Positions 387 to 15,973 of a DNA stretch of 64,000 nucleotides are shown here, piece by piece. The notes beneath the pieces were generated by a model. The model was not told where the DNA came from, ran no database searches, and saw only the letters and a program-made list of their open reading frames with translations. Location: contig NC_017095.1 of the NCBI RefSeq assembly GCF_000235405.2, positions 769,501 to 833,500 of the forward strand, read 5' to 3'. Both the position numbers and the translations under genes were made by a program. Position 1 is the first letter of the stretch, and each line of letters opens with the position of its first letter. This DNA comes from Fervidobacterium pennivorans DSM 9078. Its GTDB lineage: Bacteria > Thermotogota > Thermotogae > Thermotogales > Fervidobacteriaceae.

Positions 387-1007
387 TCACTCTACAGGAT
401 GCCCCAACACTTTTTCAAGCTCTTCTTTCAAAACCCTGTAGTCGGTCAAGTGTATTACTGAAAATCCCAACCTACTTGCCGTCTCGATATTGTCCTTCCT
501 ATCATCTATAAACAGCGAATGCATCGGCACAACACCGTAGCGCTCCATAAGCTCGTAGAAGATATCCTCATTCGGCTTTATCTTTTTCACGTGGCTCGAT
601 ATGACCATACCGTCGAAATACTTAAAGAATTCAAACGTATTGTACACATGCTCAAACGCTTTGTAGCTGAAATTAGAAAGCACGAGCAGCCTGTATCCCA
701 TCTTTTTCAACACCGGCAACAGTTTGGCATTCTCCTCAATCGGTTTCAAAAGGCTGAGCACCGCACTCTTCATGTGGCGAATGTACTCGCCATACTCGGG
801 GTATCTTTCCTCAACCATCTTCCAAAACTGGGCTTCTGAGATCTCTCCCTTATCCATCAAGTTCCACTCTTCAATCGAGAAAACCTTCTCCGTTAGCACC
901 TTCGCAACTTCTTCGTCGAAGTGCTCTACCATGTACCCGTAAGGGTCCCAGTGAATCAAAACTCTCCCAAGGTCGAAAACAATCGTATCTATCTGTTTAG
1001 CCCCCAT
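387..1007 (-). CDS. HAD-superfamily phosphatase (YihX/haloacid dehalogenase-like)
   Basis: A 206-residue HAD hydrolase of subfamily IA. Motif I is VFDLGRVLIHWDP with the nucleophilic Asp near residue 11; the usual second Asp is replaced by Gly, as in YihX-like sugar-phosphate phosphatases. Motif II is LLVLSNFS, the motif III lysine lies in KKIKPNEDIFYEL, and motif IV is LFIDDRKDN. The helical cap lies between motifs I and II. An upstream in-frame TTG at 1016 directly abuts the GGAGG, whereas the ATG at 1007 sits 9 nt behind it, so the ATG is preferred. Substrate unknown; a small phosphorylated sugar is a family-based guess. Likely in one operon with the downstream amidase. Confidence 0.85.
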   Translation of the reverse strand: MGAKQIDTIVFDLGRVLIHWDPYGYMVEHFDEEVAKVLTEKVFSIEEWNLMDKGEISEAQFWKMVEERYPEYGEYIRHMKSAVLSLLKPIEENAKLLPVLKKMGYRLLVLSNFSYKAFEHVYNTFEFFKYFDGMVISSHVKKIKPNEDIFYELMERYGVVPMHSLFIDDRKDNIETASRLGFSVIHLTDYRVLKEELEKVLGHPVE

Positions 1008-1036
1008 AATATCCAACCTCCCTCTGCTTTCTTGGA

Positions 1037-1066
1037 TTACATTTTATCACATCTTCATGATATAAT
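1037..1066 (+). promoter_or_regulatory. Promoter of the GT2-LCP operon
   Basis: A consensus TATAAT at 1061-1066 is preceded by TGA, making an extended -10 element. A weak TTACAT -35 sits 18 bp upstream at 1037-1042. The gene start is 47 nt downstream of the -10. It lies in the divergent gap with the HAD gene. Confidence 0.6.
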
Positions 1067-1112
1067 AAATTCCGTCGAATTTCTAATCATCTTAAAAGGA
1101 GAGAAAATAAAT

Positions 1113-2108
1113 ATGGCTGTTCTACCACTCGTTTCGGTAATTCTCCCAACTCTCAACGAAGAAAAAACAATCGAAAAGACAATAATTAGCTTTATCGAAT
1201 CGGATTACCAAAATGTTGAACTCATAGTCGTCGACGGCATGAGCTCAGACAGAACGAGAGAAATAGTCGAAAGGCTCAAAGAAAAATACCCAAACAAAAT
1301 AAGATTGCTTGAGAATTCCAAAAAATATACGCCATCCGGTATAAACATCGGCATCAAGAATGCAAACGGAAAGTACATTATGCTTGCAAGCGGACATGCG
1401 TCTTACTCAAAAAATTACATCTCTGCCTGTGTCCAAGCGCTTGAAAACAACGAATGCGACGTAGCAGGCGGGGTTATGGAAGTCTTGCCAAGAAGTAGCA
1501 ACGTAAAAGCCGTTGCTATAAGCGAAATATTGAAACACCCATTCGGAATAGGCGGTGCGAAATATAGAACAAACAACCAGAAGAAAGAATACGTCGACAC
1601 CGTTGCGTACGGCATATACAAAAGGGAAATCTTTGAAAAAGTAGGGCTTTTCAATGAAGAACTAATAAGAAACCAAGACATTGAATTCAACATCCGATTA
1701 AAAAACGCTGGCTACAAGATATTGCTCATTCCAGAAGCTCGAGCATATTACTATGCGAGGGACACATACACAAAACTATGGCAAAATAACTACTCAAACG
1801 GCTTTTGGGTAACCCACAGCTCCAAATTCGTCAAAAGGGCATATCGACCAAGACATTTAGTGCCGATGCTCTTTGTCTTGTATCTCATTTCTTTGCTCTT
1901 ATTGCTCTTGCCAGTGAATAGAGTTCTGAAGTTTTTATACGCACTCCCTGCTTCTCTGTACCTGGCTCTGAGCATTTACTTCTCATCACAGGTTGCAATC
2001 AAGCACAAAAAGATTGCGCTCGTTCCTTATACATTCTTTTCATTCTTAGTTTTGCACATCTCATATGGCATCGGTTCGATAGTGGGAATCTTTAAGAATA
2101 GGAGATGA
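1113..2108 (+). CDS. Family 2 glycosyltransferase, membrane-anchored, ExoA-like
   Basis: A 331-residue GT-A fold glycosyltransferase. The N-terminus VSVILPTLNEEKTIEKTI and the VELIVVDGMSSDRT segment are the standard nucleotide-sugar-binding motifs. A SGHASYSKNYI stretch and RNQDIEFNIRLKNAGY (the acceptor-side ED/QD motif) complete the catalytic domain. The last ~80 residues hold two or three hydrophobic segments, so the enzyme is held at the inner membrane, as in ExoA-type exopolysaccharide transferases. The ATG at 1113 follows AAAAGGAGAG; the longer open frame upstream has no such signal and overlaps the divergent HAD gene. The LCP gene follows after 7 nt, which suggests surface-polysaccharide synthesis and attachment. 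Sugar specificity unknown. Confidence 0.88.
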   Translation: MAVLPLVSVILPTLNEEKTIEKTIISFIESDYQNVELIVVDGMSSDRTREIVERLKEKYPNKIRLLENSKKYTPSGINIGIKNANGKYIMLASGHASYSKNYISACVQALENNECDVAGGVMEVLPRSSNVKAVAISEILKHPFGIGGAKYRTNNQKKEYVDTVAYGIYKREIFEKVGLFNEELIRNQDIEFNIRLKNAGYKILLIPEARAYYYARDTYTKLWQNNYSNGFWVTHSSKFVKRAYRPRHLVPMLFVLYLISLLLLLLPVNRVLKFLYALPASLYLALSIYFSSQVAIKHKKIALVPYTFFSFLVLHISYGIGSIVGIFKNRR

Positions 2109-2115
2109 GAAAGAT

Positions 2116-3072
2116 ATGCAAAATTTCTTGAAATTCATTGTCGCATTCTCGTTATCTTTGATAATAACAGCAATCATCGTCGGGGTATACCTCAACACAA
2201 GGCTTGAAAAAATTAAATTCACAGACTTGTTCAGTCTCGAAGAAGTTTATGCCGCAAAAGATACGAACAACCCGACAGCTCCAAGCAACGAAAAATTTGC
2301 GGCTGTGCTCTTTGGTCTTGACGCAAGGCAAGAAGGAGAACACGCAAGGAGCGATACGATAATGGTATTGCTAATAGACCATGCTAATAAAAAAATAAAG
2401 CTTGCTTCGATAATGAGAGATCTGTACGTTAAAATCCCCGGATTTGACAAAAGAAAGATAAACAGTGCATACGAACTCGGCGGTCCGAAACTTGCACTTG
2501 CAACGCTTAACAAAACGTTCCAGTTATCTTTAACAAGATACGCTACCGTCGATTTTGAAGGGTTCGAAAAGATAATAGACGCCGTCGGTGGCGTTGAAAT
2601 AGATGTTAAACCAGAAGAAGTTGAACATATAAACATAAACATGCGAGAGGTAAAAAATTTGCTTGGCGGAAAACTTCCTGAAGTCAAAAAGCCCGGCTTG
2701 CAAAAACTGAATGGGCGACAGGCTCTTGCATATGCAAGGATAAGATACGTTGGCAATGCTGACTACGAGCGCGTTCAACGCCAACAGAGAGTCCTCGAGC
2801 AGGTATTTGAAAAACTAAAAACCGCATCTGTTTCAACAAAACTAAGGATAATAAATTTGGTGCTTCCATATATAGAAACCAACATTCCAAAGTCAGAGCT
2901 CATCTCGCTCGGAAGCAGGAACTACTCAGCATACACTCTCGAAAGGTTCAGGGTGCCAATAAACGGTTCCTTCCAAGAAGGACATGCAGTGATAGATGGC
3001 GTGAACCAGTGGGTGTTTATAACCGATATACCGAAGAATACAAAAGCACTGCACGAATTTCTGGGAAAGTGA
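2116..3072 (+). CDS. LytR-CpsA-Psr (LCP) family glycopolymer transferase
   Basis: A 318-residue protein with one N-terminal membrane helix (about residues 5-27) and an extracytoplasmic LCP domain. Visible family motifs are VLFGLDAR, RSDTIMVLLID, RDLYVKIPGF, INSAYELGGPKLA, VGGVEIDV and the arginine-rich YARIRY...ADYERVQRQQR near residue 210. LCP enzymes transfer polyprenyl-phosphate-linked glycopolymers to the cell wall. Coupling to the upstream GT2 gene suggests this one attaches the polymer made by that enzyme. The start follows AGGAGATGAG. A second surface-sugar gene (wecB) lies nearby on the other strand. Confidence 0.9.
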   Translation: MQNFLKFIVAFSLSLIITAIIVGVYLNTRLEKIKFTDLFSLEEVYAAKDTNNPTAPSNEKFAAVLFGLDARQEGEHARSDTIMVLLIDHANKKIKLASIMRDLYVKIPGFDKRKINSAYELGGPKLALATLNKTFQLSLTRYATVDFEGFEKIIDAVGGVEIDVKPEEVEHININMREVKNLLGGKLPEVKKPGLQKLNGRQALAYARIRYVGNADYERVQRQQRVLEQVFEKLKTASVSTKLRIINLVLPYIETNIPKSELISLGSRNYSAYTLERFRVPINGSFQEGHAVIDGVNQWVFITDIPKNTKALHEFLGK

Positions 3073-3077
3073 AAATC

Positions 3078-3580
3078 TCACCGTGATTTAAAATATTCTG
3101 GATACACCGCCCATCGTCCACCGATTTTTGTAGCAATAAGTGTTTTCCTTTCAATCATCTTTCTGATTGCATCAGGCGATTTGCCAATCATATTCGAAAA
3201 ATCATCTATCTTCATAAGTTTTTCTTCGTTAACTTTGCAGATAATCCTATCGTATGACTCCATCAGCATAAACGCGATTATTTCTGCCAGTTCTTGGATA
3301 TCTTCTTTGTCAAAGCGTTTTTCAATATCTCCGATTGAAAAATTCCTTGGTGAATCTTTAAGAATTTTTCTAAGCCCTTTTCTGCACTTTCAAGGGATTT
3401 GATGTACTTATCTCTATTTTCAGCATGTACAACCATTCCATATGCCCAGTTTCAACCGGTACGAGCCCGCATATACTTTTTCGCCATTCTAAGAGCTCTC
3501 GCAATACATTATTCATCTGAGAACAACACTTTCTTGTCCTGTTCTGAGACGCTACAAAATGATACTCTATTAAAATCAAA
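3078..3580 (-). pseudogene. Decayed gene with an intact C-terminal HTH/excisionase-like stretch
   Basis: The 63-residue frame at 3269-3078 reads IDDFSNMIGKSPDAIRKMIE followed by IGGRWAVYPEYFKSR, a helix-turn-helix with the wing seen in small excisionase/MerR-like DNA binders. It has no ribosome-binding site. Reading further upstream on the minus strand, the same protein appears to continue as SIGDIEKRFDKEDIQELAEI. After a frame change comes HAENRDKYIKSLESAEKGL, and beyond that two in-frame stops (after FSDE and after RARTG). I read this as one gene broken by a frameshift and nonsense codons. Function unknown. The alternative, a short independent HTH protein, is weakened by the missing SD. Confidence 0.45.
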
Positions 3581-3687
3581 TAAATAACAACATTTTAGAA
3601 AGTCAATGTTTGTCCAATTTCCGCCCAAAATCGCCAAACCGGACAACTATTCACACAACAATAATCAAAAGGATACGTCTTAGTTAC

Positions 3688-4758
3688 CTATTCGATTACC
3701 GCCCTTATTATCCTCTCCGAAGCTTTTCCGTCTCCAAATGGATTTTTCAGCTCACCTGGTTGGAATTCCAAGGCTTTGTACATCGCGTTTAAGACACCAT
3801 CCGTCTGCGTGCCTGCAAGAACACCGAAACCACTTTCAATGAGCTCTGGTCTTTCCGTTGTCTCCCTGCACACTACGACAAATTTTCCAAACGTAGGCGC
3901 TTCCTCTTGAATTCCCCCACTGTCTGTTGCGATGAACTTTGCACCTTTAAGCAAAGCTGTGAGCTGGACGTAGTCAACCGGTTCAGTCAACTTCGCATAT
4001 TTACATCCGTCAAGTTCTGAGTATACAATCTCCCGCACTTTCGGATTTTTGTGAACAGGAAAGACAAGGTGTATCTTCTCGTTTTCAGCAAACTTTCTCA
4101 ACGCTTTCAATATATTCCTCATTCTATCCCCTATGTTCTCCCTTCTGTGCAATGTAACTAAGAAATATTCACCATCATCAAAAATCTTCTTTCTTTCCGC
4201 ATCCAAATCGAAATGCTCTACAACATACATCTGTGCATCTATAACCGTATTCCCCGTCACCAATATCCTGCTTTCATCAAAACCTTCCCTGAAAAGTGTC
4301 GCTCTTGACTTTTCCGTCGGTGCGAACATCTTCTCTGAAACTTGGTCAATCACCCTTCTGTTCATCTCTTCAGGGAACGGGTCGTACAAATCACCACTCC
4401 TCAACCCAGCCTCTATATGCCCCACCTTAACGCCTCTATTGAAAGCAGCAAGAGCTGCTGCCATAGCCGTTGTCGTATCACCTTGGACGAATATCCAGTC
4501 GTACTTTCGCTCATTCAAAAGCTCTTCAAAACCTTTGACAACTCTGTACATAACCTCGTTGAGCGTCTGATTTGCTGTCATTATGTTCATATCTATATCA
4601 GACTCAACACCGAATATCCCCTTCATCATGTCAACCATTTCTCTGTGCTGACCTGTGCAGATAAAATCCGCATCCACGCCAAGCTCCTTCGCTTTCAAAT
4701 AGACCGTGGCAACCTTTATTATCTCAGGCCTCGTCCCAAACACTATCCCTATTCGCAC
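3688..4758 (-). CDS. wecB: UDP-N-acetylglucosamine 2-epimerase (non-hydrolysing)
   Basis: A 356-residue enzyme that interconverts UDP-GlcNAc and UDP-ManNAc in the cytoplasm to feed cell-surface polymer synthesis. Landmarks are the N-terminal GTRPEIIKVA, FVQGDTTTAMAAALAAF, VGHIEAGLRSGDLYDPFPEE, LVTLHRRENIGDR, the FPVHKNPKVRE segment and the C-terminal ATDSGGIQEEAPTFGK with RETTERPE. These are all typical of the GT-B-fold epimerase and the length is normal. It starts at a GTG a few bases after AAAGGTGGG. Together with the GT2 and LCP genes it suggests a ManNAc-containing surface glycan, which is inference. Confidence 0.95.
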   Translation of the reverse strand: MRIGIVFGTRPEIIKVATVYLKAKELGVDADFICTGQHREMVDMMKGIFGVESDIDMNIMTANQTLNEVMYRVVKGFEELLNERKYDWIFVQGDTTTAMAAALAAFNRGVKVGHIEAGLRSGDLYDPFPEEMNRRVIDQVSEKMFAPTEKSRATLFREGFDESRILVTGNTVIDAQMYVVEHFDLDAERKKIFDDGEYFLVTLHRRENIGDRMRNILKALRKFAENEKIHLVFPVHKNPKVREIVYSELDGCKYAKLTEPVDYVQLTALLKGAKFIATDSGGIQEEAPTFGKFVVVCRETTERPELIESGFGVLAGTQTDGVLNAMYKALEFQPGELKNPFGDGKASERIIRAVIE

Positions 4759-6142: not shown

Positions 6143-6553
6143 GTGGAAATTGCCAAAAGTATTGAAGACTTAGAACCACAAGCAGCGGTTGACAACTGTG
6201 CAGAAAGCACAAGAAAGTGGCACGAAAAGGTTCTCAGCTATGCGCACCTTGTGCGCAGATGGACGAGCTATTTCTGGAAAATCAACAAAGCGTACCTATA
6301 CTCATATGAAGATTTAGAACAGACCATATGGTACATACTAATGGTTGGATTGCAAGAATTCGACGGTAGGGGAGATGAGGAACAATTCCTTAACTGGTAT
6401 ATCAGAAACAAAATTGTTTCTGTAATCATGTACGGCAAAAAACCTCCAAAATGTGTACATTCACCATTCACACCTATAAGGTTCGACTACGTCTCGCCGG
6501 ATGATTTAGCCGAAGTAAACGAACTATTTTACTCGGATTTGGATGGGGAATAA
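6143..6553 (+). CDS. Small sigma-70 region-2-like protein without region 4
   Basis: A 136-residue protein. Residues ~25-100 read like sigma-factor region 2: a helix with YAHLVRRWTSYFW, then SYEDLEQTIWYILMVGLQEF, DGRGDEEQFLNWYIRNKI and VSVIMY. This matches the DL-Q-x-x-x-x-x-L-x-x-A-L-x-x-FD core-binding pattern and the Trp-rich -10-recognition helix. No region 4 follows; the C-terminus is short and acidic. The GTG start is 6 nt after a GGGGGG SD; an overlapping ATG is out of frame. The gene has its own strong promoter and terminator, so it is monocistronic. It could be a phage- or competence-type sigma fragment or a regulator that binds core polymerase. No homologue recognised with certainty. 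Confidence 0.6.
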   Translation: MEIAKSIEDLEPQAAVDNCAESTRKWHEKVLSYAHLVRRWTSYFWKINKAYLYSYEDLEQTIWYILMVGLQEFDGRGDEEQFLNWYIRNKIVSVIMYGKKPPKCVHSPFTPIRFDYVSPDDLAEVNELFYSDLDGE

Positions 6554-6573
6554 GAAAAGCATACTTAAGGAGA

Positions 6574-6606
6574 ATGCCTCCGCAAAATTTTGCGGAGGCT
6601 TTTTTA
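6574..6606 (+). terminator. Rho-independent terminator
   Basis: The inverted repeat GCCTCCGC...GCGGAGGC around AAAATTTT (6576-6599) is followed by a run of six or more T residues. It ends the sigma-like transcription unit. Confidence 0.9.
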
Positions 6607-6701: not shown

Positions 6702-6730
6702 TTGACAATTTTGTAATTTTAGTATATAAT
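6702..6730 (+). promoter_or_regulatory. Consensus promoter of the B12/opine/ATP-grasp operon
   Basis: TTGACA at 6702-6707 and TATAAT at 6725-6730 are separated by an ideal 17 bp. The leader to the first start codon is only about 37 nt, which leaves no space for a cobalamin riboswitch. Confidence 0.8.
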
Positions 6731-6773
6731 TAGTAACCGGTCCGCCTCTGCTCCTAAGAAAGGGGTGGTATTG

Positions 6774-7853
6774 ATGAAAGTATGTATCATAGGAGGCGGT
6801 AATGGCGGTCAGGCGCTTGCTGGAGTACTTGCTTTAAGAGGATTTGATGTCTCATTGTACAACAGAAGTGAGCAAAGAATTGAAAGGATTATAAAAACCA
6901 AAAAAATTGAGTTGCAAGGTTCTATATCAGGCATAACTTATATTTCCTTCGCTACAACAGACCTAAGAGAAGCAATATCAGGCAGGCAGTTACTTTTGGT
7001 AGTGCTTCCCGCTTTTGCCCACAGAGAGATTGCCTTAAAGTTAGCCCCATATTTAGAAGACGGACAGATAATAATCTTGAACCCAGGCAGGACCGCTGGT
7101 GCTTTGGAGTTCTACACTGCTTTGAAGCAATTTGGTGTTGATAAAGACATCACAGTAGCAGAGGCTCAGACGTTCCTCTTCGCTTCACGCATAACCGGTC
7201 CGGGAGTTGTAAAGATATTTGGAGTTAAGAATGCCGTGCCAGTTGCCGCACTTCCCGCTCAGAAAAATACTATACTCAAAGATGCAATTGAAAAAGTGCT
7301 TCCGGAATTCAGAATTGTTCCAAACACGCTTCACACTTCTTTTGCAAACATAGGGGCTGTTTTCCATCCTGCAAGCGTCTTGCTGAACGCTGGATGGATT
7401 GAATCAACATCGGGTGATTTTGAATTTTACACAAACGGGATATCGCCGAGTGTAGCTAAAGTTTTACAGGCGATTGATGATGAAAGATGTGCGGTTGCCA
7501 AATCTTTTGGATTAGAAACCATGAGTGCACTCGAGTGGCTCAAATATGCTTACAGTGTGGAGGGGGAAGACCTATACGAAGCGTTGCAACTGAACAAAGC
7601 TTACAAGGGTATAAAGGCACCAAGTTCGATTGATAACCGCTACATACTCGAGGACGTGCCAATGAGCTTAGTGCCGATTTCAGAATTCGGCAAAGTTACA
7701 GGCGTTCGAACACCAACAATAGACACGATTATTTCATTAGCATCAGTAATGCTGGGACGTGATTTCAGAAAAGAGGGTCGCACGCTTGAAAAACTTGGAC
7801 TTCTCGGCAAGAGTCCAGAAGAAGTTAAAAGGATCATGGAGGTGGGAATATGA
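6774..7853 (+). CDS. NAD(P)-dependent dehydrogenase, octopine/nopaline dehydrogenase family
   Basis: A 359-residue oxidoreductase. The N-terminal Rossmann fold starts at once with MKVCIIGGGNGGQALAGVLA and NRSEQRIERI. The C-terminal all-helical domain has the opine-dehydrogenase hallmark HPASVLLNAGWIES and a DDERCAVAKSFGLETMSALE segment. Family members reductively join an amino acid to a 2-keto acid (opines, opine metallophores), or reduce 2-keto acids. The first gene of a tight three-gene operon: its stop overlaps the next ATG (ATGA). The ATG at 6774 is chosen over an upstream GTG at 6765 that lies inside the SD (GAAAGGGGTGG). Substrates unknown; the neighbours suggest biosynthesis of a modified amino acid or dipeptide-like product. 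Confidence 0.8.
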   Translation: MKVCIIGGGNGGQALAGVLALRGFDVSLYNRSEQRIERIIKTKKIELQGSISGITYISFATTDLREAISGRQLLLVVLPAFAHREIALKLAPYLEDGQIIILNPGRTAGALEFYTALKQFGVDKDITVAEAQTFLFASRITGPGVVKIFGVKNAVPVAALPAQKNTILKDAIEKVLPEFRIVPNTLHTSFANIGAVFHPASVLLNAGWIESTSGDFEFYTNGISPSVAKVLQAIDDERCAVAKSFGLETMSALEWLKYAYSVEGEDLYEALQLNKAYKGIKAPSSIDNRYILEDVPMSLVPISEFGKVTGVRTPTIDTIISLASVMLGRDFRKEGRTLEKLGLLGKSPEEVKRIMEVGI

Positions 7854-9505
7854 GAATTTTGGGCGCTGCGATAGGAAGTTGCGTTCACAACGCCGGGTTA
7901 TTCAACTTCCTCCGATTAGCAGAAGACAATGGGTACGAGACTATATATCTCGGTTCTGCAGTACCTCTGGAAGTCTTGGTGAAAGCTATAGAAGAAGAAA
8001 ATCCGGATATAGTCGCGCTAAGTTACAGACTCGGCGCAGAACCATTGCGAAAACTCTTAAGAAAACTTGAAAAGATGCTCAAGAAAAGAAAATTGTTAGA
8101 CAAACTATACATTTTCGGTGGGGCGTATGAAACTGGAAAGGTAGCTAAAGAATTCAGATTTATCAAGCACGTATTCGACGGAACTGAAGAGCTTGAAGAC
8201 GTAGTCATGTTCCTGAGAGGAACCGTTCGTGCAGAGTTTTTGGATGTAACCTATCCACAAACCTTATCTGAACGTGTGAAGTTCAAAGCACCGTTCCCAT
8301 TGATAAGGCATCACATAGGTTTGCAAACATTAGAAGAGACTGAGGAAGAAATCAGAAAACTTGCTGAATCGGGACAACTTGACATTATCTCAATTGCGCC
8401 TGATCAGAATTGTCAACAGTACTTTTTCGAACCTGAGAAGATGGACCCGGCACAAGATGGCGCTGGCGGTGTGCCAATAAGGAAAAGGGAAGATTTCGTG
8501 AGGCTGTACGAAGCGTCAAGAAGAGGTAATTATCCACTAGTACGCTGTTATTCAGGCACAACGCACTTGCTTGAATTCTCAAAATTACTGAAAGAGACTA
8601 TTAACAACGCTTGGGCAGCTATACCATTGATGTGGTATAGTGACCTCGACAGGCGTTCAGACAGACCGCTTAGGGAAGCGATAAAAGAAAATATGAAAGC
8701 CATAAGGTGGAATGCAAAGCACGGCGTACCTGTTGAAATCAACGATCCGCACCAATGGGCTTTGAGATATGCTCACGATGCAGTCGAAGTTGCAATGACT
8801 TACATAACAGCTTTTGTAGCAAAAAAATTAGGCGTTAGAGACTATGTCCAGCAATTCATGCTCGAAACACCGAACGGTTATTCACCAAAAGGAGACCTTG
8901 CGAAAAACCTTGCTAAACGCGAGCTTATAGAACCGCTCCAAGACGAGAACTTCAAAATCTACAGAATGATTCGCACCGGTTTGATGTCGATGCCATCGGA
9001 CCCGCACGCAGCGATGGCTCAACTCAGTGTTTCAATGTACTACGGTTGGGCATTAGAGCCTCACATAGTTCACGTTGTAGCTTACTCAGAAGCAATCCAG
9101 AGAGCCACAGCCAAAGAGATAATCGAAAGCGTGAAAATGGCAAAGCGTGCGATAAGCCTTGCGATGCGTGGCACACCTGACCCACTTGCCGACAGATGGG
9201 TCAGAAGAGAAAAGAACAGAATAATGCAAGAAGCGATGGCAATAATCGAAGCTATAAAAGAACTCAAAGGCGGAAGCGAAGATGCATTAGCCGACCCCGA
9301 TACGCTTTATGAAGCAGTAAGACTTGGCATCTTAGACGCTCCTGCACTTAAGAGCTTCTCAGTCGCAAAAGGCGAAGTAAAAGTAAAGATTATCGACGGC
9401 ATAGCCCGTTCTGTTGATGAATTCGGCAGGCCATTACCTGAAGAAGTCAGGCTTGAGAATATCCTTTCGGAGGTGGCTGACGTTGAAAATAGCGATAGCA
9501 TATGA
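7850..9505 (+). CDS. B12-binding/TIM-barrel protein, predicted cobalamin-dependent mutase-like enzyme
   Basis: A 551-residue protein. Residues ~1-125 resemble a cobalamin-binding flavodoxin-like domain: IGSCVHNAGLFNFL stands for D-x-H-x-x-G (His and Gly kept, Asp replaced by Cys), LSYRLG for the S-x-L motif, and YIFGGAYETG for the terminal GG. Residues ~150-430 look like a barrel related to glutamate-mutase-type catalytic subunits (RCYSGTTHLLEFSKLL, VPVEINDPHQWALRYAHDAV, LEPHIVHVVAYSEAIQRAT). No radical-SAM cysteine cluster or PLP lysine signature was seen. GGAGG precedes the ATG, which overlaps the previous stop. The reaction is unknown; a carbon-skeleton rearrangement or elimination is inferred. 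Confidence 0.6.
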   Translation: MRILGAAIGSCVHNAGLFNFLRLAEDNGYETIYLGSAVPLEVLVKAIEEENPDIVALSYRLGAEPLRKLLRKLEKMLKKRKLLDKLYIFGGAYETGKVAKEFRFIKHVFDGTEELEDVVMFLRGTVRAEFLDVTYPQTLSERVKFKAPFPLIRHHIGLQTLEETEEEIRKLAESGQLDIISIAPDQNCQQYFFEPEKMDPAQDGAGGVPIRKREDFVRLYEASRRGNYPLVRCYSGTTHLLEFSKLLKETINNAWAAIPLMWYSDLDRRSDRPLREAIKENMKAIRWNAKHGVPVEINDPHQWALRYAHDAVEVAMTYITAFVAKKLGVRDYVQQFMLETPNGYSPKGDLAKNLAKRELIEPLQDENFKIYRMIRTGLMSMPSDPHAAMAQLSVSMYYGWALEPHIVHVVAYSEAIQRATAKEIIESVKMAKRAISLAMRGTPDPLADRWVRREKNRIMQEAMAIIEAIKELKGGSEDALADPDTLYEAVRLGILDAPALKSFSVAKGEVKVKIIDGIARSVDEFGRPLPEEVRLENILSEVADVENSDSI

Positions 9506-10391
9506 CAAATCAAATCTCGACAACGAGCGCTGGAAGATGGTCCAATCAGTCTCTGAAGCGCTTTCAAAAAAATACGATGCAGAACCAGTCGCCTTTGAAG
9601 ATAACTTCTGCGAAAAGGTAAAAAAATACGATGCCGTTTTCAACCTCTCAACGGCATACAAACAGATGCACGTACCCGCAATACTTGAAGTATTGAAAAT
9701 CCCATTCACCGGCTCGTCAGCTGCCGCTCATGCACTGTGCATCGACAAGCTTAAAACCAAAATAATTCTCAAACACTTCGGCATTCCAACGCCTGACTTC
9801 ATTTCAGTTGACTTAGATGAAGAAGTCCCTGAAATAGATTTTTATCCAGCAATCGTCAAACCGGTGAAAGAAGGGAGTGCAAAAGGCATATACGCCGATT
9901 CTGTTGTGCATAACCACGAAGAGTTGAAAGAAAAGGTTCTGAGAGTACACAAAGAGTTTGAACAACCAGCTTTGGTTGAACAATTTATCGAAGGAGACAG
10001 AGAATACAGCATAGGAATAGTCGGCAGTAAAGTCTTGCCAATACTCGAGATAGACTTCTCATCGCTACCGGAAGGGCTCGAAAGATTCTATTCACATCGT
10101 GTCAAACACGAATACGGAGAACAGACAACCTACATCTGCCCAGCGCAACTCACGGAAGAACTGAAAGCACAAATCGAACACTACGCATTGAAATCATTCA
10201 AAGTCCTCGGGCTTAGAAACTACGCTCGAATGGATTTAAGAGTAAAAGATGGCAAAATATACTTCTTGGAAGCAAACTCATTGCCAATGCTCACGCCAAA
10301 CTATTCAGACATAATCAAAATGGCGCAGGCTGCAGGTTATACATACGACGAATTCATACTTACCATCTTCGAAGACGCGTTGAGAAAATAA
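9483..10391 (+). CDS. ATP-grasp ligase, D-Ala-D-Ala ligase-like
   Basis: A 302-residue ATP-grasp enzyme. Features are the N-terminal KIAIAYDKSNLDN, the specificity region FTGSSAAAHALCIDKLKTK, the ATP-binding IVKPVKEGSAKGI, EYSIGIVG and the metal-binding ARMDLRVKDGKIYFLEANSL with a final NSLPMLTPNYSD. It lacks the classical Ddl EVNTLPG context, so the substrate is probably not D-Ala-D-Ala. The TTG at 9483 lies 7 nt after GGAGGTG; the gene then overlaps the previous one by 23 nt, which implies coupled translation. The open frame to 9414 has no start signal. As the last gene of the operon it is followed by a strong terminator. It may ligate the product of the two upstream enzymes to an amine (inference). 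Confidence 0.78.
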   Translation: MKIAIAYDKSNLDNERWKMVQSVSEALSKKYDAEPVAFEDNFCEKVKKYDAVFNLSTAYKQMHVPAILEVLKIPFTGSSAAAHALCIDKLKTKIILKHFGIPTPDFISVDLDEEVPEIDFYPAIVKPVKEGSAKGIYADSVVHNHEELKEKVLRVHKEFEQPALVEQFIEGDREYSIGIVGSKVLPILEIDFSSLPEGLERFYSHRVKHEYGEQTTYICPAQLTEELKAQIEHYALKSFKVLGLRNYARMDLRVKDGKIYFLEANSLPMLTPNYSDIIKMAQAAGYTYDEFILTIFEDALRK

Positions 10392-10406
10392 CTAAAGACA
10401 ATTTTG

Positions 10407-10451
10407 AAAACACGGGCGCCCCCTCCTCCTTATCCTCCGCCCGTGTTTTTT
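10407..10451 (+). terminator. Rho-independent terminator of the B12 operon
   Basis: A 12-bp stem AAAACACGGGCG/CGCCCGTGTTTT encloses a C/T-rich loop of about 19 nt and is followed by Ts. Confidence 0.88.
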
Positions 10452-12114: not shown

Positions 12115-12880
12115 CTAATCTTTAAACACGAACTCTAAGAACTCTCCTTCCTTCTCTTCATCCCATACAAAAAGGTGCTTGCATTTCTCTACATTCTGCC
12201 TGTAATACTCATAGTTTTCAAACGCATCAAGTATCTTTTTCACCGAACCTTCCACATCACTTGGGTCAATCACAACACCAATTCCGTACTTCTCCACCAG
12301 TTTCACCATAGAGACGAACGTATTTTTGACTATTACTGGCGTTCCTGCAGCGATTGAATCGTAGAACTTATTTGGCAGCGAGAAGATGTCGTTCTTGTAA
12401 GTCTCATTTCCTGTAGTCGAGAAAGATATAAGGCTGAACATCGACTTTGAAAGCTCCATCATCATCTGCTCGTACGGCAGAAAGCTCGTGTATTCGTGCG
12501 GGATGTCTTTGAAAATGTCGGAATTAATACCAATGACCTTGAACTTGATTTCTAAATCATTCAGCTTTCTTAATATTTCTTTCTCTTTGGATATGCCTCT
12601 TTGAATCTTTCCCACAAAGACAATTTCCTTACGCTTCTCGGTCGGCTCAACTGATAAACTTGCGTAATTTGGAAGAACAAGTGCCGGTTTCCTGAATTCA
12701 ACTTTTTCGAAGATGTCGCTCATCGTCTCTTCGGAAACGAAAATCAACTTGTCAGATAGCTCTATCTGCTTCTTGAAGAAGTTCCAAGCTATCTTTTCAA
12801 TTATTCTCTTGGAAAATCCCGAAAGTGTCTTTAGAAAATTCTCTGGATGGTACTCATGGATATCAAATAAAACAAAATAA
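12115..12880 (-). pseudogene. GT-B glycosyltransferase, 5'-truncated at the island junction
   Basis: The C-terminal ~250 residues of a group 1-like glycosyltransferase: FDIHEYHPENFLK, LSDKLIFVSEETMSDIF, VFVGKIQRGISKEKEIL, a NDIFSLPNKFYDSIAAGTPV nucleotide-sugar loop and YGIGVVIDPSD. A normal member has roughly 100 more N-terminal residues. The homology stops at about 12880, exactly where the foreign ABC-3C cluster begins on the other strand. The apparent frame beyond that is the complement of the ABC-3C gene. No start with an SD exists at the junction. I read it as a host surface-glycan gene cut by the island insertion. Confidence 0.7.
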
Positions 12881-12896
12881 CAGGAGGGCGCAATAC

Positions 12897-14135
12897 ATGA
12901 AGAAGCTATGTTTTGGCACTTTTGCAACAATTTTAAAGATTTGCATGGCAAAAAGAGTAACACAAAAGCAATTGTGCGGTACCATGCTGCTTTCTATTGC
13001 GCCTACTTATGATATTCGCAGCGATGATGGCACCGTTTCAGATTTGATATTAGGTAAAAAAAATCTTTCACCTGTTGTAACCGATGCTGCTCCGGATGTA
13101 GATGCTCGTGATATTTCGGTTTTCTTTAAGGAGAAAGTCCTCCCCATGTTGGATAGTAATAAAAATAGCCTAATAGTTCTTGCATTGAAGGACATCATTG
13201 CTTCTGATGACACAATCGAACCTGAAACAATTGTTGAGAAAGTAAATAACATGACAAAGGAGGATATTGTTACCTGTAATTCATTTGTTCTGGAAGACTT
13301 TCTTGCCGGAATATTTCTTTATACAGTACTTAATGTCGAAAACAGGAATTGTGAAAATAGTGTAAGAGAGATAACCGATGAGTACATACAATCCTTTGAA
13401 ACTCAAAAGAAAAGCATTAAATTTATTACAACTTACAATAATTTTTCTATGGAAGCCGCTAATGAAGTTGCGATCGATGCTCGAGCTTTGGTGCTACTAG
13501 CTGAAACGGGCGGCAGATGCCAAAAGTGCGGTAGAATTCTTGGTATAAAAAAAGAAGGCAACGATATTAACTACGCTAAGATCGTTCGCCTTTCAGAAAC
13601 TGACGATATTATTCTATGTGTTGACTGTGAACGCGAAATTCGAAATTTATCTGAAGAAGATAAATTGGCTTTATTATCCGACAAGCATGACTTAGAAATA
13701 CTTGTTAAGGCAAGAGATGCCACATCAAGACATGAAATAGAAAAGCAAACTGAACAAGTACTTCGAGAAGTTGATCTAATGGATGTTACAGCCGATACAC
13801 AACTCAAAATGGAACCTATTAAGGTTGAAAATAAAATTACTGAAAAACGCCTGAAAGAAAGAGTGCTTTTTGATGTTAGACGGTTTTATGAAGGAGTAAA
13901 TGATACATTAGATCGGTTAGCCGGAGAAAATAAATTAAATGTGGATAGATTTGCTAAAAGTATTAAACGGATGTATGAAGATGCTAGTGAATCACAGATT
14001 TCACAAAGTGCTATTTACAACCTCCTTGTTGAGACATTATTTGAAAAGACCGGTCGTAAATACAGAGAGGCTTGTGAGATAATAATCTCCTACTTCGTGC
14101 AAAGGTGTGAGGTGTTCGATGAGATTACCAAATAA
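12897..14135 (+). CDS. ABC-3C system effector-type protein with zinc-finger/HNH-like centre
   Basis: A 412-residue protein, first gene of an ABC-three-component cassette. A helical N-terminal half is followed by a GGRCQKCGRILG...IILCVDCERE module. C208/C211 and C241/C244 form two zinc knuckles in the layout of an HNH (treble-clef) nuclease, but the position of the usual catalytic His is INYAKIVRL, so activity is doubtful. The C-terminal ~95 residues (VLFDVRRFYEGVNDTLDRLA...YREACEIIISYFVQRCEVF) match the helical C-terminal domain that recruits such effectors to the ABC-3C ATPase. The ATG is 9 nt behind AGGAGG. The start lies about 20 nt from the island edge and no convincing promoter is visible. 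Confidence 0.65.
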   Translation: MKKLCFGTFATILKICMAKRVTQKQLCGTMLLSIAPTYDIRSDDGTVSDLILGKKNLSPVVTDAAPDVDARDISVFFKEKVLPMLDSNKNSLIVLALKDIIASDDTIEPETIVEKVNNMTKEDIVTCNSFVLEDFLAGIFLYTVLNVENRNCENSVREITDEYIQSFETQKKSIKFITTYNNFSMEAANEVAIDARALVLLAETGGRCQKCGRILGIKKEGNDINYAKIVRLSETDDIILCVDCEREIRNLSEEDKLALLSDKHDLEILVKARDATSRHEIEKQTEQVLREVDLMDVTADTQLKMEPIKVENKITEKRLKERVLFDVRRFYEGVNDTLDRLAGENKLNVDRFAKSIKRMYEDASESQISQSAIYNLLVETLFEKTGRKYREACEIIISYFVQRCEVFDEITK

Positions 14136-14361
14136 AGTAACATCATATTCAAACAGTATTATTGCGCTTTTTCCAGGTATTTTAGAAGCATTGTCACAGC
14201 AAGATATGTCCCCAAAAGAATTATTTGAACGAACCATGCCACGCCAAAAAAACATGGCTGATTTTCTAAGTGCTTTAGACTGCTTGTTTGCATTAGGCAG
14301 AATTAAACTAATTGAGGAAAAGAGGGTACTGCGCTATGTTAAAAGAGATACGATGCGATAA
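14119..14361 (+). CDS. ABC-3C middle component, MC6-like
   Basis: An 80-residue winged-helix-like protein (MRLPNKVTSYSNSIIALFPG, MSPKELFERTMPR, FLSALDCLFALGRIKLIEE). Size, position and the 'ALDxLFxLGxIxLxE' ending are those of the small middle component of ABC-three-component systems, which bridges effector and ATPase. It overlaps the effector gene by 17 nt and the ATPase gene by 26 nt, so the three are translationally coupled. The ATG at 14119 is preferred over the GTG at 14107 because GAGG lies 6 nt upstream. Confidence 0.7.
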   Translation: MRLPNKVTSYSNSIIALFPGILEALSQQDMSPKELFERTMPRQKNMADFLSALDCLFALGRIKLIEEKRVLRYVKRDTMR

Positions 14362-15973
14362 ATTTGCTCCAAATCATCAAGTGATAAAACTTAATGAAGG
14401 ATTAAACACGGTTTTGGGCAGTTCCAGCGGTACTAATGCAATAGGAAAATCAACATTTCTGTGGGTTATAGATTATGCATTCGGCGGTGACAGATACTAC
14501 TCCATGTCGGATGATATAAAAAAGGAAATAGGCCCACATACCATCCATTTCACTTACGAGTTTGAAGGACAACCGTACTATTTTTATAGAAGTACTGAAG
14601 ATACTAAAAATGTATATCGAAGTGATAAGGACGGACATTTTATTACAAAATTGACACTTGATGAATTTCGTAGCTTTCTATTTCAAGAATATAAAGTTGG
14701 TACCCCCTCTCTTACATTTTCAGATATAACTGAGCGTTTTTTCCGCATTTATGGGCGCGAAAATACGCTAGAAAAGTATCCATTACTTGTAAAACCTCGT
14801 GAACAAGATGAAAAGGCAGTCGATTTTTTATTAAAACTTTTTGGGCACTATGAAATTCTATCTGCGATTAAGAGCATGGAAGAAGAACTTGGGATTAAAT
14901 TTTCGCAGCTCAAATATCGCCAACATCAGAGAGTGGATATAGAAAAAATCGAAACCAATCAAAAAATGATCGAGTCTTTAAAGAAAAGGCTTCAAAAATT
15001 AATGAAAAACAACGAAGAAGCACAATTAGCAGTTTTTGGGTTTGATACACATACATTCGAACAAATAACTGCAATTCAAAAAGAATTGAATAGTTTTATT
15101 CGCAAACGTAATCGCTTGCAATCGCAGCTTAATGCTATTACGAGCAATATAGCTGATAGCAAGGCCGAAATCGCAAGTGAATTTGATTCATTGTTACACT
15201 TTTTCCCAAATGCTAATATAGCAGCATTTGAAAAGATTGAATATTTTCATGAGAAAATTAGAGAAATTTTAGGCGAAGAGATGAATCAGGAAATTGAGCG
15301 TTTGCAGCAAATAATTGATCAATATGATAAAGAAATAAATCGCCTTAATAGAAAAATTAAAGAAACTGGCTTAGCTAAGGAAATGTCAGAGAGAATACTA
15401 TCACAGTGTGTTAATGTGTCCAAAACAATTGATAGACTTGAAGAAGAAACGGCGGATTTAATTCATCAAAAAGAACTTCAAGAAGCTCGCATTGAAGCAG
15501 AGAGGAAATTAAAAGATCTGCTACTGCAACAAACCGAAATAATACAAGAAATACAAGATAACATTAACCTACGAATGAAAATGATTAACGACGTAGTAAC
15601 TGAACAGCAGGAAATCGCCCCACTTTTGCAAATAACTCCTCAAAAGGAAATTATATTTGAAACACCCGGAAACACAAGTGAGGGAACCGCTTTCAAGAGC
15701 CTAGTTATATACGATTTAACTATACTTGAACTACGGCCAATCCCTGCACTTATCCATGACTCCAATATCCTTAAACGTATTGAGGATATACACTTAGAAC
15801 ATATATTGGAACGTTATCAATCCAGTAATCGCCAGGTTTTCATTGCGTTTGATAAAGCTGATTCTACAACTGAGAAAGCGCACAAGATTTTAGAAGAAAC
15901 AGCAATCTTGCGATTATCAGATGGTAATGAACTATTTGGTCGTTCGTGGAGTAAATACGAATCGAATGATTAA
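14336..15973 (+). CDS. ABC-3C ATPase, DUF2326-type SMC-like protein
   Basis: A 545-residue ABC-type ATPase. The N-terminus LKEIRCDKFAPNHQ leads into a Walker A with the family's GTNAIGKSTFLWVIDYAFGG (about residues 32-51). Two long coiled-coil stretches follow (about 190-400) around a helical hinge, as in SMC/RecN proteins. The C-terminal head has FKSLVIYDLTILELRP, PALIHDSNILKRIED (Walker B region) and VFIAFDKADS. It belongs to the DUF2326 class used in ABC-3C conflict systems. The ATPase is thought to sense invading DNA or nucleoprotein and to license the effector. The ATG lies 9 nt after AGAGGG inside the preceding gene. Confidence 0.75.
   Translation: MLKEIRCDKFAPNHQVIKLNEGLNTVLGSSSGTNAIGKSTFLWVIDYAFGGDRYYSMSDDIKKEIGPHTIHFTYEFEGQPYYFYRSTEDTKNVYRSDKDGHFITKLTLDEFRSFLFQEYKVGTPSLTFSDITERFFRIYGRENTLEKYPLLVKPREQDEKAVDFLLKLFGHYEILSAIKSMEEELGIKFSQLKYRQHQRVDIEKIETNQKMIESLKKRLQKLMKNNEEAQLAVFGFDTHTFEQITAIQKELNSFIRKRNRLQSQLNAITSNIADSKAEIASEFDSLLHFFPNANIAAFEKIEYFHEKIREILGEEMNQEIERLQQIIDQYDKEINRLNRKIKETGLAKEMSERILSQCVNVSKTIDRLEEETADLIHQKELQEARIEAERKLKDLLLQQTEIIQEIQDNINLRMKMINDVVTEQQEIAPLLQITPQKEIIFETPGNTSEGTAFKSLVIYDLTILELRPIPALIHDSNILKRIEDIHLEHILERYQSSNRQVFIAFDKADSTTEKAHKILEETAILRLSDGNELFGRSWSKYESND

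Follow-up and report, generated by a model that had tools for sequence, protein, structure and literature searches.

A three-gene operon in Fervidobacterium pennivorans

We analyzed a 64,000-nucleotide stretch of DNA from Fervidobacterium pennivorans DSM 9078 (NC_017095.1, positions 769,501 to 833,500), referred to here as the window, which belongs to a genome of 2.17 Mb. Three head-to-tail overlapping genes at window positions 6774-10391 encode a predicted opine dehydrogenase (ODH), a predicted B12-binding mutase (MUT) and a Ddl-like ATP-grasp ligase (LIG). The overlap between ODH and MUT is 4 nt (ATGA), and that between MUT and LIG is 23 nt. The original prediction, made from this DNA sequence without database searches, had described three coupled genes with a consensus promoter and their own terminator, and the overlaps and flanking signals agree with that description (Table 1). 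Its assignment of the products as opine-dehydrogenase-like, B12-binding mutase-like and Ddl-like was likewise borne out by Pfam matches, with the match of MUT to Met_asp_mut_E falling slightly below threshold. An Rfam search of the operon locus did not reveal a riboswitch. The functional assignments described below rest on sequence and predicted structure.

Table 1. Features of the ODH-MUT-LIG operon (window coordinates)
Feature	Position	Strand	Basis
Sigma-70-type promoter, TTGACA-17-TATAAT	6702..6730	+	12/12 consensus positions match
ODH, opine dehydrogenase with acidic-amino-acid signature	6774..7853	+	Pfam PF02317 8.5e-51; ATG start
MUT, N-terminal B12-binding domain and C-terminal (beta/alpha)8 barrel of glutamate-mutase epsilon type	7850..9505	+	Pfam, AlphaFold2, fold matches
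LIG, Ddl-like ATP-grasp ligase	9483..10391	+	Pfam Dala_Dala_lig_C (PF07478) 1.2e-31; TTG start
Intrinsic terminator, 13-bp stem, 19-nt loop, then U-rich	10406..10450	+	-18.9 kcal/mol, z -6.0

Conservation of the ODH-MUT pair

Relatives of MUT were gathered from Thermotogota, Bacillota and Bacteroidota, with one genome per species, some of them incomplete. This yielded 79 distinct MUT loci, of which 77 could be assessed; the other two are a truncated duplicate of the window locus and a locus cut off by the end of its contig. We found a same-strand ODH gene beside MUT in 75 of these 77 loci, with a median gap of 33 nt. In L019 and L025, ODH was present by translated search although it was absent from the open reading frame (ORF) calls. 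The two genes overlap or are at most 200 nt apart in 71 of the 75 pairs. The other four pairs are separated by up to 1.2 kb, and in three of them a ligase gene fills the gap. As a rule ODH is upstream of MUT; it is downstream in four loci. The flank test sees neighbors only and misses distant partners, and both genomes with an unpaired MUT gene (G1309 and G1385) encode an ODH elsewhere, each with the signature residues of linked ODHs.

The conserved core is the ODH-MUT pair, which is kept in Thermotogota, Bacillota and Bacteroidota. In the conservation test suggested by the original prediction, the conserved unit was the pair and not the whole trio; the third enzyme varies. In Thermotogota, the same 38 genomes out of 61 carry MUT and ODH, and neither gene occurs without the other. 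Only 3/9 genomes of the window's own genus contain the pair, so ODH and MUT are gained or lost together. It was also present in about a fifth of the genomes (85/398) sampled from the phylum of Clostridiaceae bacterium 14S0207. A mirror-tree comparison of MUT and ODH gave a Mantel r of 0.65, the highest value in 2000 permutations being 0.41; this correlation adds little beyond co-occurrence. In the MUT tree, Bacteroidales sequences (L027-L030), including that of the isolate Seramator thermalis, are nested within the Thermotogota clade, a position consistent with gene transfer.

A divergent mutase class of about 630 residues (L055-L059, L062-L064 and L084) is likewise paired with ODH. This class retains DxHxLG and a SYRL motif, and the two members scanned gave no Pfam match. 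In L084, which comes from the same taxonomic order as the window, a divergent mutase is accompanied by ODH and LIG of Thermotogota type, as though the mutase were swapped and its partners kept.

Substrate signature of ODH

ODH scored 172.4 bits against Octopine_DH (PF02317), for which the cut-off is 30, and its closest solved structure is Arthrobacter CENDH (1bg6; 282.8 bits, or 347 bits as a profile). Opine dehydrogenases from hot springs (mODHs) favor aspartate and glutamate together with pyruvate (Telek et al. 2024, PMC10787698). A double swap at positions 111 and 198 of ArODH switches specificity from Phe to Asp, with Arg111 and Gly198 conferring the acidic preference, and an Arg at position 35 accompanies NADPH use (PMC10787698). 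R106, G194 and R31 of the window ODH align with these three positions. Among MUT-linked ODHs, Arg106 is present in 81/81, Gly194 in 80/81 (the remaining one has Ala) and R31 in 71 of the 74 sequences that cover it. The H198-D294 catalytic dyad, W255 and R289 are each found in all 81. These catalytic residues were placed by alignment to 3c7a, with roles taken from PMC2924402 and PMC10787698; the reference residues of OcDH are His212 of the catalytic dyad and Arg324, the Arg NADH sensor (PMC2924402).

Unlinked ODHs from the same searches served as a control, and these mostly contain Ser, Tyr, Thr or Ala together with Asn at the two specificity positions. The Arg-Gly pair also occurs in three unlinked ODHs (L165, L166 and L170) and in two further cases, both from short loci at the ends of contigs. 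Acidic substrates are predicted by this signature, which is not exclusive to MUT partners. An acidic-signature ODH with no mutase is also encoded in L192 (2369-8057), in an operon with a TAXI-TRAP transporter (NMT1_3 binding protein, DUF1850 and DctM) and an ornithine cyclodeaminase-family enzyme; a sigma-54-type response regulator gene is nearby. Gene sizes and order in L193 and L194 are as in L192, and these operons look like systems for acidic-opine uptake and use.

Domain structure and fold of MUT

MUT matched the Pfam B12-binding family (3.1e-11; about residues 1-125) and Met_asp_mut_E (4.6e-6; 25.8 bits, slightly below the 26.6 cut-off). Its corrin motif reads GSCVHNAG, with Cys at the Asp position of DxHxxG, as the original prediction had noted. 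Because Cys is the majority state at this position in the family (60 Cys, 16 Asp and 1 His; n=77), the substitution is no sign of a dead cofactor site. His13 (77/77) and Gly16 of the motif are invariant in the family where present.

An AlphaFold2 model of MUT was obtained from an 11-sequence alignment (mean predicted local distance difference test score 83.9). Foldseek and VIA-align gave glutamate mutase epsilon (6h9e_B/1cb7_B) as the top fold, with Z 33.4 and a root-mean-square deviation of 3.2 over 374 residues, so that the comparison with glutamate mutase suggested in the original prediction came out in its favor. Lysine 5,6-aminomutase ties with this match (Z 32.6), and ornithine aminomutase is next. 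A hidden Markov model (HMM)-HMM alignment of the MUT barrel with MutE covered 407 columns (E 3.9e-8). E414 of MUT, which is invariant (79/79), aligns with the ribose-binding Glu of glutamate mutase, presumably E330 in GlmE numbering. A Glu of this kind binds the adenosyl ribose in the glutamate mutase family (PMC4389238).

In two clostridial loci, L109 and L110, MutL is fused C-terminally to a MUT relative (PF13941, 4.9e-81 in L109). MutL is the reactivase of glutamate mutase. A single gene in each of these loci (L109:1739-5380 and L110:6306-10007) encodes the B12-binding domain, mutase barrel and MutL, and it lies directly downstream of ODH.

Two assignments for MUT were rejected. A pyridoxal phosphate (PLP)-dependent aminomutase of the OraE/KamDE type was discounted since Ala24 of MUT aligns with the Lys at OraE chain residue 626, which we take to be the PLP-binding Lys of the B12 domain. 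Ordinary methylaspartate fermentation was also discounted, as ODH-MUT loci are without the neighbors of the canonical MutE loci that were retrieved (L085-L088), which adjoin genes read as methylaspartate ammonia-lyase and/or MutL.

LIG and the varying third enzyme

LIG fell below the curated cut-offs for Ddl (167.3 bits versus 243 for NF002378, and 151.6 versus 245.65 for TIGR01205), and a separate Ddl-type gene that is 34% identical to LIG is present elsewhere in the genome. On these grounds LIG was rejected as the housekeeping Ddl. A Ddl-like ligase is found in most Thermotogota and in some Bacillota (L067, L068, L070, L077, L119 and L128), and the gene order changes among LIG-ODH-MUT, ODH-MUT-LIG and ODH-LIG-MUT. 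Other ATP-grasp enzymes replace the Ddl-like ligase in L031, L065, L078 and L083, and an asparagine-synthase-type (AsnB-like) gene adjoins MUT in three related Bacteroidota loci (L124-L126). That unrelated carboxylate-activating enzymes share one slot suggests an amide-bond step.

The same four loci with other ATP-grasp enzymes contain flippase, polymerase/ligase-type or glycosyltransferase genes (in L065, as judged from its homology to L031) and lie in polysaccharide clusters. Near ODH-MUT loci we saw no recurrent gene for a metal transporter or receptor, nor one resembling nicotianamine synthase. A metallophore product, one of the possibilities raised in the original prediction, was thus not specifically supported, and this reading was rejected. 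L079, a Bacteroidota locus, has two genes of the sulfotransferase family next to its ODH-MUT pair (L079:9957-12015).

A proposed pathway for a modified acidic amino acid

We propose, with a probability of roughly 0.55, that the operon serves the synthesis of a modified acidic amino acid by a short pathway. An acidic-type ODH together with a MUT of glutamate-mutase type suggests that the two enzymes handle one and the same acidic substrate. ODH would join an acidic L-amino acid (glutamate, aspartate or a methylaspartate) reductively to pyruvate, using NADPH, to generate an N-(1-carboxyethyl) amino acid. MUT, a putative adenosylcobalamin radical mutase with the glutamate mutase fold, would rearrange the carbon skeleton of the glutamate-like part, and the step that we favor is conversion of N-(1-carboxyethyl)-glutamate to N-(1-carboxyethyl)-3-methylaspartate. 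LIG, or elsewhere another ATP-grasp or AsnB-like enzyme, would then activate a carboxylate and link the product by an amide; the acceptor in some bacteria may be a surface polysaccharide. As far as sequence can tell, the rearranged, N-alkylated and amide-linked amino acid of the original prediction fits the acidic ODH signature, the corrin domain with its mutase barrel and the recurring carboxylate-activating partner. A more specific version, which we offer tentatively, is that MUT would be the first adenosylcobalamin mutase whose substrate is an opine (an N-carboxyalkyl amino acid) and not a free amino acid or CoA thioester, that its product would be a previously unseen N-carboxyethyl methylaspartate-type unit of cell-surface polysaccharides, and that gene transfer carried the system from one phylum to another.

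The main rival is the reverse order, in which MUT would convert free L-glutamate to (2S,3S)-3-methylaspartate like ordinary glutamate mutase, and ODH would then add pyruvate. This order, which we consider unlikely, is compatible with the glutamate-mutase fold of MUT and with an ODH signature that accepts Asp-like substrates (PMC10787698), and glutamate mutase and methylaspartate are mentioned in papers on macrolactam biosynthesis clusters. However, genome G061 carries, besides MUT, a canonical MutE gene that belongs to an operon of its own. In addition, the glutamate-binding residues of glutamate mutase, which we take to be R66, R100, R149 and E171, are poorly matched in MUT: R66 aligns with His155, R149 falls at R232/Y234, and R100 and E171 lie in gaps. 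The lack of aligned counterparts of R100 and E171 favors a substituted over a free glutamate, and the ODH-first order is favored because the residues that hold free glutamate are unrecognizable in MUT.

Several points weigh against the biosynthetic pathway as drawn above. The barrel residues were mapped by profile alignment at ~16% identity and not by superposed coordinates, which makes the argument from R100 and E171 a weak one. A homology search that did not include AsnB detected no LIG or other ATP-grasp homolog within 2 kb in 50 of the 79 loci, and the amide step may consequently not be general. Moreover, ODH-MUT-MutL in L110 lies beside a peptide ABC transporter, a peptidase C26 and a CitMHS-type transporter, a context that looks catabolic.

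In a catabolic module, an imported acidic opine would be rearranged by MUT, and ODH would run oxidatively to release pyruvate and an amino acid. This direction is possible for some loci such as L110, with its transport and peptidase genes, and the transporter-linked ODHs of L192-L194, which are without MUT, are in keeping with it. As an account of the operon it is improbable, in that the ligase or AsnB-like third partners and the polysaccharide clusters point to synthesis, and the window operon is without a transporter. Finally, it is highly improbable that MUT binds a corrinoid but is no carbon-skeleton mutase, for example a methyltransferase or sensor: although its B12-binding domain alone scored best against methyltransferase corrinoid proteins and methionine synthase, the whole barrel scored better against glutamate mutase, lysine 5,6-aminomutase, ornithine aminomutase and methylmalonyl-CoA mutase than against other barrels, and the invariant ribose-binding Glu and the MutL fusion also argue against it.

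If the biosynthetic pathway is correct, it would be an undescribed B12-dependent pathway in 38/61 Thermotogota genomes and in 85/398 of those sampled in the phylum of Clostridiaceae bacterium 14S0207, and a hidden reason for the carrier bacteria to need B12. It would also assign a new branch of radical mutases a concrete class of substrates, namely an acidic amino acid plus pyruvate, and would give orphan acidic opine dehydrogenases a role; it predicts a novel amino-acid unit in some surface glycans.

Surroundings of the operon in the window

The interval 6143-6599, just upstream of the operon, contains a 136-amino-acid ORF with a weak match to sigma-70 region 2 and, after it, a strong terminator at 6576-6599. 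Genes for a glycosyltransferase, a LytR-CpsA-Psr protein and a UDP-GlcNAc 2-epimerase are close to the operon (921-4758) and are suggestive of a glycan context; an AAA ATPase gene stands between them and the operon. The glycan genes in the window are scattered and form no continuous polysaccharide cluster. At 12825-15970, a gene for an ABC-three-component system protein (CTD11 domain) is followed by one for a DUF2326 protein, a candidate phage-defense pair.

Comparison with known systems

In the open-access literature we found no description of the ODH-MUT pairing, in agreement with the original remark that the chemistries of the trio were not familiar as one pathway. Searches of this literature gave no paper that links opine or octopine dehydrogenase to glutamate mutase or adenosylcobalamin, and none on Fervidobacterium with opine dehydrogenase.

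Opine metallophore pathways of the staphylopine/pseudopaline type likewise use a PF02317 opine dehydrogenase that makes an N-carboxyalkyl product. In contrast, the partners of ODH are a B12 mutase and a ligase, and neither a nicotianamine-synthase-like gene nor a metal uptake system was seen nearby. ODH resembles the mODHs and ArODH/CENDH in its family, His-Asp dyad, active-site Trp and the Arg111/Gly198 and Arg35 positions. This likeness is judged by residue positions, and the main text of the mODH paper (PMC10787698) gives no gene context or partner mutase and does not name Thermotogota. LIG shares the ATP-grasp core and the active-site Arg and Asn of the C-terminal domain with Ddl and VanA-type ligases; it differs from Ddl in its divergence from the genome's other Ddl-type gene, its scores below the curated cut-offs and a His at the Tyr216 position. 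MUT shares with glutamate mutase (GlmS/GlmE) the B12-binding domain, the (beta/alpha)8 barrel, the conserved His lower ligand and the ribose-binding Glu, and two of its relatives are fused to MutL. Unlike GlmS/GlmE, the substrate residues R66, R100 and E171 are unrecognizable in MUT, its two domains are fused in one chain, Cys is usual in DxHxxG, and the partner gene is ODH.

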